DNA from: Rhizobium sp. SG_E_25_P2
GTDB lineage: Bacteria > Pseudomonadota > Alphaproteobacteria > Rhizobiales > Rhizobiaceae
Direction of reading: 5' to 3'
Assembly (NCBI RefSeq): GCF_029892285.1
Contig: NZ_JARXVM010000005.1
Location: forward strand, 1 to 64,000
Length of the DNA: 64,000 bases
The notes beneath the pieces were generated by a model. That model saw only the letters and a program-made list of their open reading frames with translations, was not told the DNA's origin and searched no databases. Shown here piece after piece: positions 38,442-45,817 of this stretch. Each line of letters starts with the position of its first letter. Within the stretch, counting starts at the first letter, position 1. Both the position numbers and the translations under genes were made by a program.

Positions 38442-38466
38442 GGAACTTTCCTGTTGCGCGCGCGTT
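38442..38466 (+). promoter_or_regulatory. EcfG promoter of the CHASE3 kinase operon
   Basis: A perfect GGAAC (38442-38446), 16-base spacer, CGTT (38463-38466), about 120 bases upstream of the kinase gene start. The spacer equals that of the nepR promoter. It places the kinase and two receivers in the general stress regulon. Confidence 0.7.
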
Positions 38467-38587: not shown

Positions 38588-40087
38588 ATGTCCGACCAAC
38601 AGCAGTCGCTGATTAGGTCGACCTTTGTCGCCCTGATCGTAAGCGCTTTTCTTCTTGCCGGCATCGTCGCCGGCATCATTTACCTGGTTTACAAGACTCA
38701 GGACTATGTCGCCGGCGCCGCCGAAGCGCGCCGTGTCCGAAGCGCCGCTGCGGACTTGTTGCTGTCGTTGCAGGATTCCGAAAGCGGTCAACGGGGCTTC
38801 CTGTTGACCATGGAACCGACATTTCTCAAACCGTATCGTGATTCCATCGACGAAATCGGCCGCCGCGAAAATGTTCTTGAGGCGGCAATCGCCGGAAGCC
38901 GGTTTTCTGAAATCGAGATCGAGCCGCTCCGCCGCGTCATCGCGCAGAAGTTAAACGAACTGAAGACGACCTTGTCGCTCGCCCAATCGGAGCGCCGCGA
39001 ACAAGCGCTTGCCATGGTGCGAAACCAGGTTGGCCTGACGCTGATGAACGACATCCGCAGCACGCTCAGCGAAATGATCGCCGAGGCCGACCGCCAGATT
39101 GCCGGGCAGCTGAAGAGCCATCTCAGCCTTGCCGCAGGGCTCCGCATGGTGACGATCGCGGGCGCGATCGCCGTTCTCGCTGTTTTTATCATCGTGTTCC
39201 TGATCATCCGCCGCTATGTCCAGGAAATCCTGGTCGCGCGGCGAGAGCTTGAAGGCTTGAACGCGGGGCTGGAACAGCGCGTGCGGGAGCGCACCGAGGA
39301 CCTGATCCAGGCCAACCAGGAAATTCAGCGCTTCGCCTATATCGTCACCCATGATCTGCGCGCGCCGTTGGTCAACATCATGGGCTTTACCAGCGAACTC
39401 GACAATGCGCTGAAGACGATCCAGTCCTATTTCAAGAGCGAAACCGGCTCAGTCGGCAATGAAACCTCCCGCGTCGAAACAGTTCTTGCGGTCGAGGAGG
39501 ATCTGCCGGAGGCGATCGGCTTTATCAGGTCGTCGACTCGCAAGATGGACGAACTGATCAACGCCATTCTGAAGATCTCGCGCGACGGCCGCCGGCAGTT
39601 GAAGCCCGAGCGCATCGATCTCGCCGCGCTTATCCAGCATAATGTCGCCGCCATCCAGCACCAGGTTCTGGAAGCCCGTGGCGAAGCCGACATCAAGGTC
39701 GACGTTAAGTCCGTCGTCACCGATCGTTTCTCGCTCGAACAGGCGCTTGGCAATCTGCTCGACAACGCCGTGAAATATCGCGAGCCGGAGAGGCCCCTGC
39801 GGCTGTCCGTTCGCGCCTTCCGGGTCAACGCATTTACCATCGGCATAGATGTGTCCGACAATGGCCGAGGCATCGCGCCGGAGGATCACGAACGCGTCTT
39901 TGAATTGTTTCGCCGCTCCGGAGTGCAGGACAGGCCGGGCGAAGGGATCGGGCTGGCGCATGTCCGTTCGCTCGTGCGCAATATGGGCGGCGATATCCAG
40001 CTGAAATCTGAACGGGGCACAGGCTCGACATTCATGATCCGGATGCCTTCGGATCTCAGTCGTTTTGTAGGGAGTATCAGCGAATGA
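38588..40087 (+). CDS. CHASE3 sensor histidine kinase
   Basis: A 499-residue inner-membrane kinase. Two membrane helices (VALIVSAFLLAGIVAGIIYLV and AGAIAVLAVFIIVFLIIRR) frame a helical CHASE3 domain with the typical LLSLQDSESGQRGFLLTMEP. After a coiled coil comes the phosphoacceptor box FAYIVTHDLRAPLVNIMGF, and the ATPase domain with LGNLLDNAVKY, DNGRGIAPEDHERVFELF and GEGIGLAHVRSLVRNMGG. The receiver gene at 40084 overlaps its end, so they form one operon. The architecture resembles phytochrome-type kinases with small single-domain receivers. A perfect EcfG promoter lies upstream. Confidence 0.93.
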   Translation: MSDQQQSLIRSTFVALIVSAFLLAGIVAGIIYLVYKTQDYVAGAAEARRVRSAAADLLLSLQDSESGQRGFLLTMEPTFLKPYRDSIDEIGRRENVLEAAIAGSRFSEIEIEPLRRVIAQKLNELKTTLSLAQSERREQALAMVRNQVGLTLMNDIRSTLSEMIAEADRQIAGQLKSHLSLAAGLRMVTIAGAIAVLAVFIIVFLIIRRYVQEILVARRELEGLNAGLEQRVRERTEDLIQANQEIQRFAYIVTHDLRAPLVNIMGFTSELDNALKTIQSYFKSETGSVGNETSRVETVLAVEEDLPEAIGFIRSSTRKMDELINAILKISRDGRRQLKPERIDLAALIQHNVAAIQHQVLEARGEADIKVDVKSVVTDRFSLEQALGNLLDNAVKYREPERPLRLSVRAFRVNAFTIGIDVSDNGRGIAPEDHERVFELFRRSGVQDRPGEGIGLAHVRSLVRNMGGDIQLKSERGTGSTFMIRMPSDLSRFVGSISE

Positions 40088-41708: not shown

Positions 41709-42275
41709 TCAGCCGACGAAGGTCCGACCGGTGACGGCGAGGGCGCGGGAATCCGGGCCGTATTCGCGGTCGCCCTCCACAGCCAGCAATTCGGCCAGCC
41801 GGTTTCGGGCGCGGTTGACGCGGCTCTTGATGGTGCCGATGGCGCATTGGCAAATTTCGGCGGCTTCTTCATATGAAAAACCGGATGCGCCGATCAGAAT
41901 GATCGCTTCGCGCTGGTCATCCGGCAATTTTTCGAGCGCCGCCTTGAAATCCTGTAGATCCAAGGCGCCATATTGACCGGGATGTGTCGAAAGCTGCTCG
42001 GTATAGTATCCGTCGGAATCCTGAATCTCGCGGCCGCTCTTGCGGATCTGGCTGTAGAATTCGTTGCGAAGGATCGTAAACAGCCAGGCCTTCATATTGG
42101 TGCCGGGTTCAAACGAACTCTTCTTCGCCCAGGCCTTCATGATCGTGTCCTGGACCAGATCATCCGCCCGGTCGTGGCGTCCGGTCAGTGAAACGCCGAA
42201 AGCGCGCAGGCTGCCGAGGCAGGCAAGCATCGTACGCTTGAAATCTCTTTCGATGCTGTCTTCGTCTTGCGTCAT
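41709..42275 (-). CDS. ecfG: EcfG-type extracytoplasmic function sigma factor
   Basis: A 188-residue sigma factor with only regions 2 and 4. Region 2 shows RADDLVQDTIMKAWAKKSSF and NMKAWLFTILRNEFYSQIR; region 4 shows LEKLPDDQREAIILIGASGF and EEAAEICQCAIGTIKSRVNR. Length and motifs fit the EcfG/SigT group that directs the alphaproteobacterial general stress response. The start overlaps the nepR stop by ATGA, so anti-sigma and sigma are made in a coupled way. NepR holds it inactive until phosphorylated PhyR takes NepR away. It is ended by a clear terminator. Confidence 0.96.
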   Translation of the reverse strand: MTQDEDSIERDFKRTMLACLGSLRAFGVSLTGRHDRADDLVQDTIMKAWAKKSSFEPGTNMKAWLFTILRNEFYSQIRKSGREIQDSDGYYTEQLSTHPGQYGALDLQDFKAALEKLPDDQREAIILIGASGFSYEEAAEICQCAIGTIKSRVNRARNRLAELLAVEGDREYGPDSRALAVTGRTFVG

Positions 42276-42481
42276 GATCCGCTGTCCTCCGTCATCAGAG
42301 GCTGCATCTTGCCGGTATGAAGACGCTCGGCTTGATCCAACTGCTCAAGAAGGTCCAGAAACCGATCCGGAACAGCCTCTTCCTGCAGGGAATCGTAGTA
42401 TTCTTTAAGTTTTTTGGGGATTTCGCCGAACGGGCCAGGCACGCCTGGATCTCCCATTCTGTTCGTTTCATCACTATTCAT
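42272..42481 (-). CDS. nepR: NepR anti-sigma factor
   Basis: A 69-residue protein with the NepR core GEIPKKLKEYYDSLQEEAVPDRFLDLLEQLDQ (split here as IPKKLKEYYDSLQEEAVP and DRFLDLLEQL). The family binds either EcfG or the sigma-like domain of phosphorylated PhyR. ATG 42481 is chosen because the family begins with a short disordered arm; the frame to 42580 would run across the EcfG promoter. Its ribosome site is weak, which may keep anti-sigma levels matched to the sigma made from the overlapping gene. Confidence 0.92.
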   Translation of the reverse strand: MNSDETNRMGDPGVPGPFGEIPKKLKEYYDSLQEEAVPDRFLDLLEQLDQAERLHTGKMQPLMTEDSGS

Positions 42482-42521
42482 ATGTGCGGACTCGTATTGT
42501 TGCGACGATGATCTTCGCGGG

Positions 42522-42546
42522 AACGTTCTGCCCCGACGTTGGTTCC
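42522..42546 (-). promoter_or_regulatory. EcfG promoter of nepR-ecfG
   Basis: On the minus strand GGAAC (42546-42542) is followed by 16 bases and CGTT (42525-42522), exactly the EcfG consensus, about 40 bases upstream of the nepR start. It gives positive autoregulation of the sigma factor. Confidence 0.85.
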
Positions 42547-42576
42547 ACACTGCTGAAAATTTTGGGCGCTGTCTTT

Positions 42577-43707
42577 TCATTTGGGCTCCAGACGCCGCAG
42601 GCGTCCCTCGGAATCATCTTCGATGACCCAGACATAGCCGCTCGAATCGACCGCGACATCACGAATACGCGCTTCCATGTCCCACCGCTCCGCTTCATGC
42701 GCCGCGCCATTGTCCTCGAAAGTGATGCGGCTGAGGCTCATTCCGGCCAGGCCGCCGATCAACGCCGAACCGCGCCATCCGGAAAACCGCGCCTGCGTAT
42801 AGAAAACCAGGCCGGCAGGGGCGATTACCGGGGTCCAATAGACGGATGGGGCGGCCAGGTCCGGACGCGTGGAATGCCGCGGGATCGGCGCGCCGCTATA
42901 TTGATCGCCATTGGAGACCAGCGGCCAACCATAATTCGAGCCGGCCTTTATGAGGTTGAGCTCGTCTCCTCCGCGTGGGCCCATTTCGTGCGCCCAAAGG
43001 GCGCCGTTGGGGGCAAAGGCGAGGCCATAGGGATTGCGGTGCCCATAACTCCAGATTTCAGGCCGGGCTTCTACGTTATTTTCAAAAGGATTTCCCTTTG
43101 CGGGAGCGCCGTCGAGCGTAAGCTTGACGATGCTGCCTTGAGGCGTCGAAAGATCCTGGGCGCGTCGCGGACGCATTCGATCGCCGACGGTCAGGAAGAG
43201 ATGTCGGCCATCGGGCGCAAAAGCGATCACGCCTCCGGGCTGGCCGCCTCCCGGCATCGCTCCGTCGCGCCAGATGACCTTCAGGTTTTCGAGAGCGGCT
43301 TTGCCGTCGGTCCGCGTGAGTGCGGCGCGCGCGAGCGCGAGCGATCCGCCTTTTGACGTCGGCGCGACATAGCTGAGATAGACAAGGCCGGATTGCGCGA
43401 AATCCGGCGCGGGCGCAATGTCGAGCAGTCCTAGCTGCCCGTCATGGACGACTTCCGGAACGCCCTCCACCGGCTGCTTGTGGCCCTGGGAGTCGACGAG
43501 CCAGACAAGACCGCCTTTTTCAGTGACGAGCATTTCGGTCCCATTGAGGAAGGCGAGCGCCCAGGGCGTATCGAATATCGCGACATCCCTGGCCAGAAAG
43601 GGCGGATCGCTTTTAGCAGTGTTTTTGCCCGCGTTTTCCGAAGCGATCGCGACGGTCGCCGAAAATAGGGCTGCGGCTCCCGCCAGAAGCTTGATCATTT
43701 TCGGCAT
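42577..43707 (-). CDS. Soluble PQQ-dependent aldose dehydrogenase-like protein
   Basis: A 376-residue periplasmic beta-propeller protein. The signal peptide is MIKLLAGAAALFSATVAIA. Family marks are TPWALAFLNGTEMLVTEKGG, HDGQLGLLDIAPAPDF, HLFLTVGDR, SYGHRNPYGLAFAPNGALWA, EMGPRGGDELNLIKAGSNYG and IAPAGLVFYT, as in glucose/sorbosone dehydrogenases and E. coli YliI. It probably oxidises sugars with PQQ, whose synthesis genes are not in this window. Start 43707 has a GGAGG ribosome site; the longer frame to 43965 crosses the small RNA promoter. It lies directly upstream of nepR on the same strand. Confidence 0.92.
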   Translation of the reverse strand: MPKMIKLLAGAAALFSATVAIASENAGKNTAKSDPPFLARDVAIFDTPWALAFLNGTEMLVTEKGGLVWLVDSQGHKQPVEGVPEVVHDGQLGLLDIAPAPDFAQSGLVYLSYVAPTSKGGSLALARAALTRTDGKAALENLKVIWRDGAMPGGGQPGGVIAFAPDGRHLFLTVGDRMRPRRAQDLSTPQGSIVKLTLDGAPAKGNPFENNVEARPEIWSYGHRNPYGLAFAPNGALWAHEMGPRGGDELNLIKAGSNYGWPLVSNGDQYSGAPIPRHSTRPDLAAPSVYWTPVIAPAGLVFYTQARFSGWRGSALIGGLAGMSLSRITFEDNGAAHEAERWDMEARIRDVAVDSSGYVWVIEDDSEGRLRRLEPK

Positions 43708-43904
43708 CGTCGCCTCCTCTGTCAGACCTTTGCTCGCGGTCTCCATCTCAAGACCACAGCTGGTCGAATGGAGAAAAGCGCCACTGCATATAGGGTGGGA
43801 GGCGACGCTGATGAAGGGAGCCATCGATTTGTGGCGGCGCACGATCCCGTGAATGCGCATCGTGATGGATTTTTTGAAAAACTCGAGATTCTGGCCTGTC
43901 CGGA

Positions 43905-43929
43905 GGAACCAATCGCCAAACGCGCCGTT
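43905..43929 (+). promoter_or_regulatory. EcfG promoter of a putative small RNA
   Basis: A perfect GGAAC (43905-43909), 16-base spacer (43910-43925), CGTT (43926-43929). No protein start follows before a strong terminator ending near 44070. Spacer length matches the nepR and CHASE3 kinase promoters. Confidence 0.75.
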
Positions 43930-43935
43930 ATTCGG

Positions 43936-44070
43936 TCGTCGAATGCGGAGCCCCCTCCTCTTCATTCGAAAGCTGGCGCCGGATCCGCCCCTTCATCCCC
44001 CCGAAGGCGCCAGACGCATAAAGGAGAGAACCTTTCCTCCCGCCGGAATGGTTCTCTCCTTTTTATTTTC
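43936..44070 (+). ncRNA. Putative EcfG-dependent small RNA with three C-rich loops
   Basis: Starting a few bases after the -10 at 43926, three hairpins follow in order. Hairpin 1 has a seven-pair stem (43939-43945 with 43963-43969) and a loop containing GCCCCCTCCTCTT. Hairpin 2 has an eight-pair stem (43973-43980 with 44006-44013) and a loop with CGCCCCTTCATCCCCCC. Hairpin 3 is a 13-pair stem (44020-44032 with 44050-44062) with loop TTTCCTCCCGCC and a T-rich tail, an intrinsic terminator. Each loop is complementary to Shine-Dalgarno sequences. Alphaproteobacterial small RNAs such as GsrN and the ar14/cuckoo type use C-rich loops in this way. Length is about 135 bases. Ends are estimates. Confidence 0.65.
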
Positions 44071-44073
44071 TCG

Positions 44074-44098
44074 GGAACTTTTCCAGCTTCCGTGCATT
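44074..44098 (+). promoter_or_regulatory. EcfG-like promoter of the DUF883 operon
   Basis: GGAAC (44074-44078), 16-base spacer, CATT (44095-44098), directly after the small RNA terminator and about 58 bases before the DUF883 gene. It has one mismatch to CGTT. Confidence 0.55.
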
Positions 44099-44155
44099 TT
44101 CCGGGGCAGGCGCGGCCAAGGCCGCGCGAGTTTCGAGATGATAAGGGATGACATC

Positions 44156-44482
44156 ATGGCTTTTTCCGACGCGAACGAAAAGAATGCGCCCACCGTCGAA
44201 GACCTCGAGGCGCAGATCGGCGATCTCAAGCGCGATATCGCTGAATTGACCAAGAGCCTGGCCGCCTTTGGCGCAGCCAAAGCCGAAGCCTATCGCGACG
44301 GCGCCGAGAAAATGGCGGCGGACGCTGCGGCCGCGTCGCGTCGCGCTTTCAATGACGCCCGCGAGGAAGCTCATTCCTTTGGTCGCGACGTGGAGGATGA
44401 GATACGCGCCCGCCCTTTTCAGGCGGTGGGACTGGCGCTCGGCCTCGGCTATCTCGCCGCGCTTCTCACCCGCAGGGGCTGA
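44156..44482 (+). CDS. DUF883 family protein (ElaB/YqjD-like)
   Basis: A 108-residue protein with an amphipathic helical body (TVEDLEAQIGDLKRDIAELT, then many Ala and charged residues) and one C-terminal membrane helix, RPFQAVGLALGLGYLAALLT, ending in RRG. This is the layout of ElaB/YqjD proteins, which in E. coli are stationary-phase membrane-anchored ribosome-binding proteins. The ATG at 44156 has AAGGGATG upstream; an in-frame ATG at 44138 is possible. It lies behind an EcfG-like promoter and is followed after two bases by another membrane protein gene. Confidence 0.88.
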   Translation: MAFSDANEKNAPTVEDLEAQIGDLKRDIAELTKSLAAFGAAKAEAYRDGAEKMAADAAAASRRAFNDAREEAHSFGRDVEDEIRARPFQAVGLALGLGYLAALLTRRG

Positions 44483-45010: not shown

Positions 45011-45817
45011 ATGACCTTGACCGAGCGCGTGGCTGCCCATTTGCCGTTCCTGCGCCGCTATTCGCGCGCGATCACCGGATCACAGACGTCTGGCGACGCT
45101 TTCGTGGTTGCGACCCTTGAGGCGCTGATCGCTGATCTCAGTATTTTTCCGGAAGCCTCTTCCGATCGTGTGGCGATTTACAAGCTCTTTGTCCGGATCC
45201 TGAAATCCGCCCAGGTTGACGTGCCGCATGCCGTCTCTCCCTTCGCCTGGGAAAAAAAGGCGGTCGCCAATCTTTCCGCTGTGCCCACGCAAGCCCGGCA
45301 CGCCTTCCTGCTGGTGTCGGTGGAAGGCTTCTCCTTCTCCGAAGCGGCGGAGATCCTGACCGTCAGCATCGAGGATGTGAAACGGCTGATCGACGAAGCC
45401 ACTCAGGAAATTTCGCGTCAGATTTCCACCGAGATCATGATCATCGAGGATGAGCCGCTGATCGCGCTCGATATCGAGCATATCGTCCTCGATCTCGGCC
45501 ACAGCGTCAGCGGCATCGCCCGCACCCATGCCGAGGCGCTGGACCTCTATCGCCGCAGCAATCCGGGCATGATCCTCGCCGACATCCATCTTGCCGATGG
45601 CAGTTCCGGTATCGATGCGATCAATGATATCCTCAAGGTCGCTAGCGTGCCGGTTATCTTCATTACGGCATTCCCGGAACGACTTTTGACCGGCGAACGC
45701 GCCGAACCGACATTCCTGGTCACGAAGCCTTACAATCCCGATATGTTGAAAGCGTTGATCAGCCAGGCGCTTTTCTTTAACGACGGCGACAAGGCCTATC
45801 AGGCGCTGTCTGCCTGA
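45011..45817 (+). CDS. phyR: PhyR, anti-anti-sigma response regulator
   Basis: A 268-residue protein with a sigma-like N-terminal domain (RVAAHLPFLRRYSRAITGSQ, then LSAVPTQARHAFLLVSVEGF and EAAEILTVSIEDVKRLIDEA) and a C-terminal receiver (IMIIEDEPLIALDIEHIVLD, phosphorylated Asp in MILADIHLADGSSG, Lys in LVTKPYNPDM). On phosphorylation the sigma-like domain is released and captures NepR, freeing EcfG. The gene is 2.5 kb from ecfG-nepR, with an HWE kinase next to it. A GGAAC box upstream has no good -10, so its own stress control is uncertain. Confidence 0.96.
   Translation: MTLTERVAAHLPFLRRYSRAITGSQTSGDAFVVATLEALIADLSIFPEASSDRVAIYKLFVRILKSAQVDVPHAVSPFAWEKKAVANLSAVPTQARHAFLLVSVEGFSFSEAAEILTVSIEDVKRLIDEATQEISRQISTEIMIIEDEPLIALDIEHIVLDLGHSVSGIARTHAEALDLYRRSNPGMILADIHLADGSSGIDAINDILKVASVPVIFITAFPERLLTGERAEPTFLVTKPYNPDMLKALISQALFFNDGDKAYQALSA

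Follow-up and report, generated by a model that had tools for sequence, protein, structure and literature searches.

A candidate small RNA under predicted EcfG control with three C-rich hairpin loops between nepR-ecfG and phyR of a Rhizobium genome

The general stress response of the Alphaproteobacteria has been studied mostly as a transcriptional switch, and GsrN showed one RNA arm of this response in Caulobacter. The C-rich 5' loop of GsrN is described to pair with the katG leader, and EcfG-driven homologs of GsrN are predicted near the stress locus of R. etli, S. meliloti, Brucella, Agrobacterium, Rhodopseudomonas and Bradyrhizobium (PMC5869019). The small RNA ReC64 of Rhizobium etli is located behind phyR-tcrY and has an EcfG consensus promoter, with its start determined by 5' RACE; expression of a ReC64 fusion was lost without ecfG1, and in E. 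coli either EcfG1 or EcfG2 could switch it on (PMC3892343). ReC64 was visible by northern blotting together with a further, unexplained larger band (PMC2881028) and was over-expressed upon salt shock in a study that predicted SigA and RpoH promoters there (PMC4167512). The ar14/NfeR1 RNAs carry CCUCCUCCC hairpins (PMC10746234, PMC3927594).

Promoter, fold and gene neighborhood of the predicted RNA

We analyzed a stretch of 64,000 nucleotides of a Rhizobium genome (the window), in which a sequence-only reading had placed a small RNA between the nepR-ecfG and phyR parts of the stress locus. This placement was confirmed by the Pfam domains of the neighbors, with NepR, Sigma70_r2 and Sigma70_r4_2 detected for nepR-ecfG (41709-42580, minus strand) and PhyR_sigma2, PhyR_sigma-like and Response_reg for phyR (45011-45817, plus strand), behind which Pfam revealed an HWE kinase gene. 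The window comes from a relative of Rhizobium sp. G21 and R. setariae, as its PhyR protein was 96% identical to that of the former and 80% identical to that of the latter. The nepR-phyR interval of the window also has a glucose/sorbosone dehydrogenase gene; at this place three genomes of the genus (G001, G005 and G008) have small-protein genes (from their translations probably CsbD-like, short membrane protein and DUF883-like; L108:2164-3870, L111:2007-3303 and L113:2228-3531).

By sequence inspection, GGAAC at 43905-43909 and CGTT at 43926-43929 are separated by 16 nucleotides on the plus strand, and the EcfG-type promoter at 43905-43929 is therefore an exact match to the consensus GGAAC-N16-CGTT, as had been claimed. 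The motif alone was at chance level genome-wide (98 matches vs 110 for the reversed pattern used as control), so the case for the RNA is made by the combination of features and by their recurrence. Perfect EcfG sites were likewise observed ahead of the CHASE3 histidine kinase gene at 38588 (38442-38466, plus strand) and ahead of nepR (42522-42546, minus strand).

Transcription would start 6-8 bases 3' of CGTT and give a small RNA of ~130 nt (43936-44066, plus strand). This interval folded into three hairpins at -55 kcal/mol compared to -35.39 kcal/mol (sd 3.65) in 200 shuffles (z -5.4), none of which was as good. By fold and partition function, hairpin 1 (43939-43969) has 7 + 4 pairs around one mismatch, and its open loop CCCCCUC (43951-43957), located ~15 nt into the RNA, had an ensemble unpaired probability of 0.83-1.00. 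Hairpin 2 (43973-44013) has 8 pairs and the large C-rich loop CCGCCCCUUCAUCCCCCC, most of which is open. Hairpin 3 (44020-44064) is the intrinsic terminator that had been described, with a stem of 13 pairs, a U-run (U5) and the open loop UCCCGCC at 44038-44044, and was evident from the sequence as well as from fold and partition function. The loop sequences of hairpins 1 to 3 are CCCCCUCCUCUU, CCGCCCCUUCAUCCCCCC and UUUCCUCCCGCC. All three loops are C-rich, in agreement with the sequence-only reading; of the letters it had quoted for loops 1 and 3, just CCCCCUC and UCCCGCC are open and the others are paired in the ensemble. The three-hairpin fold also stood, while the description of the hairpins before the terminator as perfect did not apply to hairpin 1 with its mismatch.

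The RNA is followed on the same strand by a DUF883-like gene (44156-44482; Pfam DUF883_C at 21.4 bits, below the cut-off of 27), which starts ~90 bases after the terminator. This arrangement would suit an alternative in which the segment is no free small RNA and forms an attenuator-bearing 5' leader of that gene. By contrast, a second EcfG-like promoter, GGAAC-N16-CATT (44074-44098, plus strand), is located directly 3' of the terminator and 5' of the DUF883-like gene, and both G002 and G004 have retained it; the like RNA of Rhizobium, Neorhizobium and S. meliloti loci is on the opposite strand, behind phyR or its kinase; and no leader family was detected at the Rfam cut-off. We thus regard a leader as very improbable. 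The -10 variant CATT also precedes the like RNA in G006 and in S. meliloti and Ensifer loci.

The stretch had also been described as devoid of any protein start, a loose statement, as the plus-strand frame 43853-44482, open in the window genome, crosses the RNA into the DUF883-like gene. That the RNA is instead the upstream part of this protein-coding frame is hardly credible and was rejected: the same frame has stops inside the RNA in G002 and G004, the conserved protein by eye begins near the ATG at 44156, and substitutions within the RNA keep its base pairs. A free small RNA ending at hairpin 3 is the reading followed below.

Relation to ar14 and GsrN RNAs and proposed mode of action

Rfam covariance models, to which the sequence-only reading had deferred the question of a known family, gave no family at gathering score in the window and none in nine related loci with like RNAs. 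Among matches at lax thresholds, the best-ranked, a plastid 3'UTR family (E 0.016, antisense of the terminator), was taken as chance. ar14 (RF02344) matched over its full length at a weak 24.2 bits (E 0.019 in a 601-base search). A diverged ar14/cuckoo (NfeR1) member that has acquired EcfG control and whose anti-Shine-Dalgarno loops block ribosome-binding sites would account for this match. Similar to NfeR1 and SmelA075, the window RNA has three hairpins (SmelA099 has four), the last being the terminator; these hairpins have C-rich loops as in NfeR1, and C-rich loops are held constant with variable stems in ar14/cuckoo RNAs as in the window RNA (PMC10746234, PMC3927594). CCUCC, moreover, occurs in two hairpins, with four of its five letters open and one paired in hairpin 1 and three open and two paired in hairpin 3. 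By sequence inspection it is absent from hairpin 2, which has a C-tract loop; the claim of three anti-Shine-Dalgarno loops thus stood in part for loops 1 and 3, where CCUCC is partly paired, and fell for loop 2.

Against ar14 membership, which was rejected, the score of 24.2 bits is far from the gathering cut-off of 58.8, and the locus is missing from the list of ar14 genes of this genome, five of which are encoded elsewhere (C4:294290, C12:129141, C2:157890, C4:290348 and C11:174022) and score 60 to 105.6 bits. In addition, none of the three loops has a complete CCUCCUCCC, the nine loci with like RNAs gave no family at gathering score either, and NfeR1 is described with a sigma-70 promoter and LsrB control compared to the EcfG promoter of the window RNA (PMC10746234, PMC3927594). 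A diverged ar14 member is accordingly unlikely. The five ar14 genes above the Rfam cut-off indicate that the cell has several C-loop RNAs besides the window RNA.

GsrN resembles the window RNA as a direct target of an EcfG-type sigma factor, usually encoded near the stress locus, with an exposed C-rich loop near its 5' end (PMC5869019). Of the features described for GsrN-like RNAs, the window RNA has the near-consensus EcfG site (43905-43929) and the proximity to the sigma factor-phyR locus, between nepR and phyR (PMC5869019). This likeness is judged from the description of GsrN, which is reported as ~100 nt with one 5' C-rich loop and a second exposed 3' region (PMC5869019). The RNA belongs to no known family by Rfam gathering score, but for other Rhizobiaceae EcfG-driven small RNAs that expose a C-rich loop and are encoded close to the stress locus are described or predicted (PMC5869019). 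Among the papers listed by literature searches, none was seen to report this RNA for the genus; RNAs of the same kind are known from Rhizobium etli (ReC64) and Caulobacter (GsrN), and the window RNA is thus not a new kind.

The three loops were compared by duplex energy to ten leaders (nine gene starts of the region and katG), and no signal beyond chance was found. The lowest value, for the gene at the holin position, was equaled or surpassed by 2 of 100 shuffles, as expected among 30 tests. For katG, no stretch of four consecutive G was present close to the gene start, and the duplex with loop 2 was equaled by 10 of 100 shuffles; these data gave no support for the katG target of GsrN in the case of the window RNA. 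Target prediction with the three loops, which had been proposed together with the anti-Shine-Dalgarno assignment, thus failed to single out a duplex with katG or with stress-locus leaders.

We consider it likely that the window RNA is a stress-induced small RNA that works in trans as part of the general stress response, with C-rich antisense seeds for multiple targets. Promoter, fold, terminator, locus and recurrence in relatives are features of the sequences themselves; transcription of the window RNA, its dependence on EcfG, its seed function and its targets would follow from them as predictions. Under stress, phosphorylated PhyR would pull NepR off EcfG, and EcfG-RNA polymerase would transcribe the ~130-nt RNA from the promoter at 43905-43929, with hairpin 3 ending the transcript. 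The three hairpins would offer C-rich single-stranded loops as partly redundant seeds, which may pair with G-rich segments located in the leaders or at the ribosome-binding sites of several mRNAs, and this pairing would alter translation or stability of the target mRNAs. The most likely seed mode, by analogy, is that of the 5' loop of GsrN combined with the redundant loops of NfeR1. With such putative targets, the strong post-transcriptional arm of the stress response envisaged in the sequence-only reading is plausible.

Recurrence at stress loci of relatives and comparison to ReC64

A plain DNA search found the RNA in 4 of 61 genomes, its own included. A covariance model was built from four congeners, with the promoter not part of the model, and was run over 134 sources. 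These consisted of 70 sources (1.31 Mb), namely the window, 21 of 87 earlier loci (chosen partly for having scan matches) and 48 loci of other genera, and of 64 further loci (1.00 Mb), from which just the duplicates L108 and L110 were omitted. Ten sense-strand matches were found outside the model members (E 1.8e-6 to 0.034). Five occupied the corresponding interval of those five genus genomes, out of nine, that had not contributed to the model (G005, 36.9 bits; G003, 35.4; G008, 24.6; G001, 21.4; G007, 19.6) and five in further loci (L196, 33.2 bits; L043, 26.6; L154, 24.4; Neorhizobium L013, 21.5; Breoghania L038, 20.9). With the model members counted, candidates are present between ecfG and phyR in all nine genus genomes, those of G001 and G007 being weak. 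An EcfG-like site begins 22-35 bases upstream of all ten matches and has the strict pattern in seven, compared to a background at random positions of 1.3% (loose) and 0.47% (strict). Seven of the ten candidates (L109, L112, L013, L038, L043, L154 and L196) were already known from promoter-based scans, and those of G005, G008 and G001 were new.

The best match in 800 kb of control DNA had an E of 0.49, and nothing outside the model was below E 0.24 in the 64 further loci. Opposite-strand matches at E < 0.05 (three in the 70-source run and one in the 64-locus run) were the palindromic terminator read antisense. Weak matches of Neorhizobium L011 and L012 (E 0.28 and 1.8) were near the position of the L013 RNA, and those of L188 and L151 (E 0.11 and 0.4) were without an EcfG site. 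When the search was extended to the order, 5 of 198 other genomes matched at E <= 0.01 per genome (~2 expected) and none of the matches had an EcfG site; all five were judged false for lack of this site or of PhyR, NepR and EcfG in the 20 kb fetched, and outside the locus a bit score of 25-33 is thus no proof by itself. This draw also included six further genomes of the family, which gave no match under its stricter filters.

Conservation of the stems in relatives, which the sequence-only reading had named as a check, was borne out on 11 matches (E <= 0.01, run over ten loci): 92.6% of the alignment cells are paired and double changes number 94, compared to 26.7 in shuffled alignments, in an alignment that favors this result, as it was fitted to the structure, and that has one antisense row. 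Slid-alignment controls gave at most 50% pairing and 23 double changes. In G006, the lower stem of hairpin 1 is rewritten with pairing kept (by hand alignment, six of seven pairs changed on both sides) around the loop UCCCCUC, and hairpin 2 lacks its outer two pairs.

Loci around phyR were also scanned for an EcfG site followed by at least two C-rich hairpin loops and a terminator. By this approach, 14 of 87 loci matched (552 EcfG sites; among the loci, L009/L110 and L010/L108 each represent one genome twice), compared to one match in 807 sites, overlapping a true case, for seven permutations of the motif (Fisher p 3e-5). Among loci of other genera of the family, 11 of 48 matched (356 sites), compared to one match in 670 sites for eight permutations (p 7e-5). 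Two of ten permutations (GAACG and CGGAA) were excluded as one-base shifts of the real motif; they matched real sites 6 times, and with them the control gives 7 matches in 983 sites. The loci matched included S. meliloti, Ensifer, Rhizobium, Neorhizobium and Pseudorhizobium. The counts of 14 and 11 are lower bounds, as the scan misses known cases in G003 and G006. No match was detected in 40 control regions of 20 kb from the same family, which contain just 63 EcfG sites; the difference to the stress loci reaches significance when calculated per base (p 0.001) but not when calculated per EcfG site (11/356 vs 0/63, p 0.38). Without the promoter, three-hairpin C-loop terminators numbered 16 in 941 kb of stress loci vs 4 in 800 kb of control DNA, with none in nine further Rhizobiaceae-type loci. 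Descriptor and promoter-free scans gave no like RNA in G001, G005 and G008, where the covariance model later gave candidates.

ReC64 resembles the window RNA in being a small RNA that is encoded at the ecfG-phyR locus and has an EcfG consensus promoter (PMC3892343, PMC2881028), and RNAs at the ReC64 position in the Rhizobium loci analyzed here fold into three hairpins, of which two or more have C-rich loops. By contrast, ReC64 is reported behind phyR-tcrY with a length of 88 nt, compared to a position between nepR and phyR and a predicted ~130 nt for the window RNA. A second model, R2, was built from ReC64-position RNAs (five Rhizobium, one Ensifer and one S. meliloti sequence) and matched five further genera at 79.7 to 36.1 bits. 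For four of these five matches, a strict EcfG site was present at -32 or -33; the fifth, L160:9292-9409 (plus strand, 36.1 bits), is less than 10 kb from phyR and has no EcfG-like site. R2 gave no window match at E <= 10 over 74 sources including the window, and the two models do not find each other's RNAs. The ReC64-position RNAs thus form a group of their own, and promoter, locus and architecture are common to both groups. Judged from position and not from the R. etli sequence, the ReC64-position RNAs are presumably ReC64 orthologs.

Taken together, promoter, terminator, fold and recurrence in relatives make the RNA at 43936-44066 a well-supported candidate for an EcfG-controlled small RNA. 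The experimental finding that ReC64, encoded at a similar locus in R. etli, depends on EcfG1 (PMC3892343) adds to this by analogy. We give an even chance to a broader proposal, in which one uncatalogued class of EcfG-driven RNA is present at the stress locus in many Rhizobiaceae and in some neighboring families and keeps promoter, locus and C-rich loops, with stems and even place in the locus turning over faster than the protein neighbors. ReC64 and the window RNA would then be two branches of this class, with the loops constant and the stems free as in the ar14 RNAs of the same cell. If true, the general stress response would have in this class a persistent arm that works post-transcriptionally. 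An EcfG-driven RNA that recurs at the switch itself and has multiple C-rich loops, in a plant-associated family and unmatched by Rfam at gathering score in the window and nine loci, would provide candidates for an RNA arm as a standard part of the response.

Two further observations were made in these searches. A model match in another family of the order (L248:9909-10025, minus strand) has the hairpin loop CCGCCCCTTCACACCGG and a strong third hairpin, and is without an EcfG site or stress-locus genes in 20 kb. Strict EcfG sites (CGTT) were ~8.5-fold denser near phyR than in control DNA, with 240 in 941 kb (L151-L198) compared to 24 in 800 kb (L199-L238).
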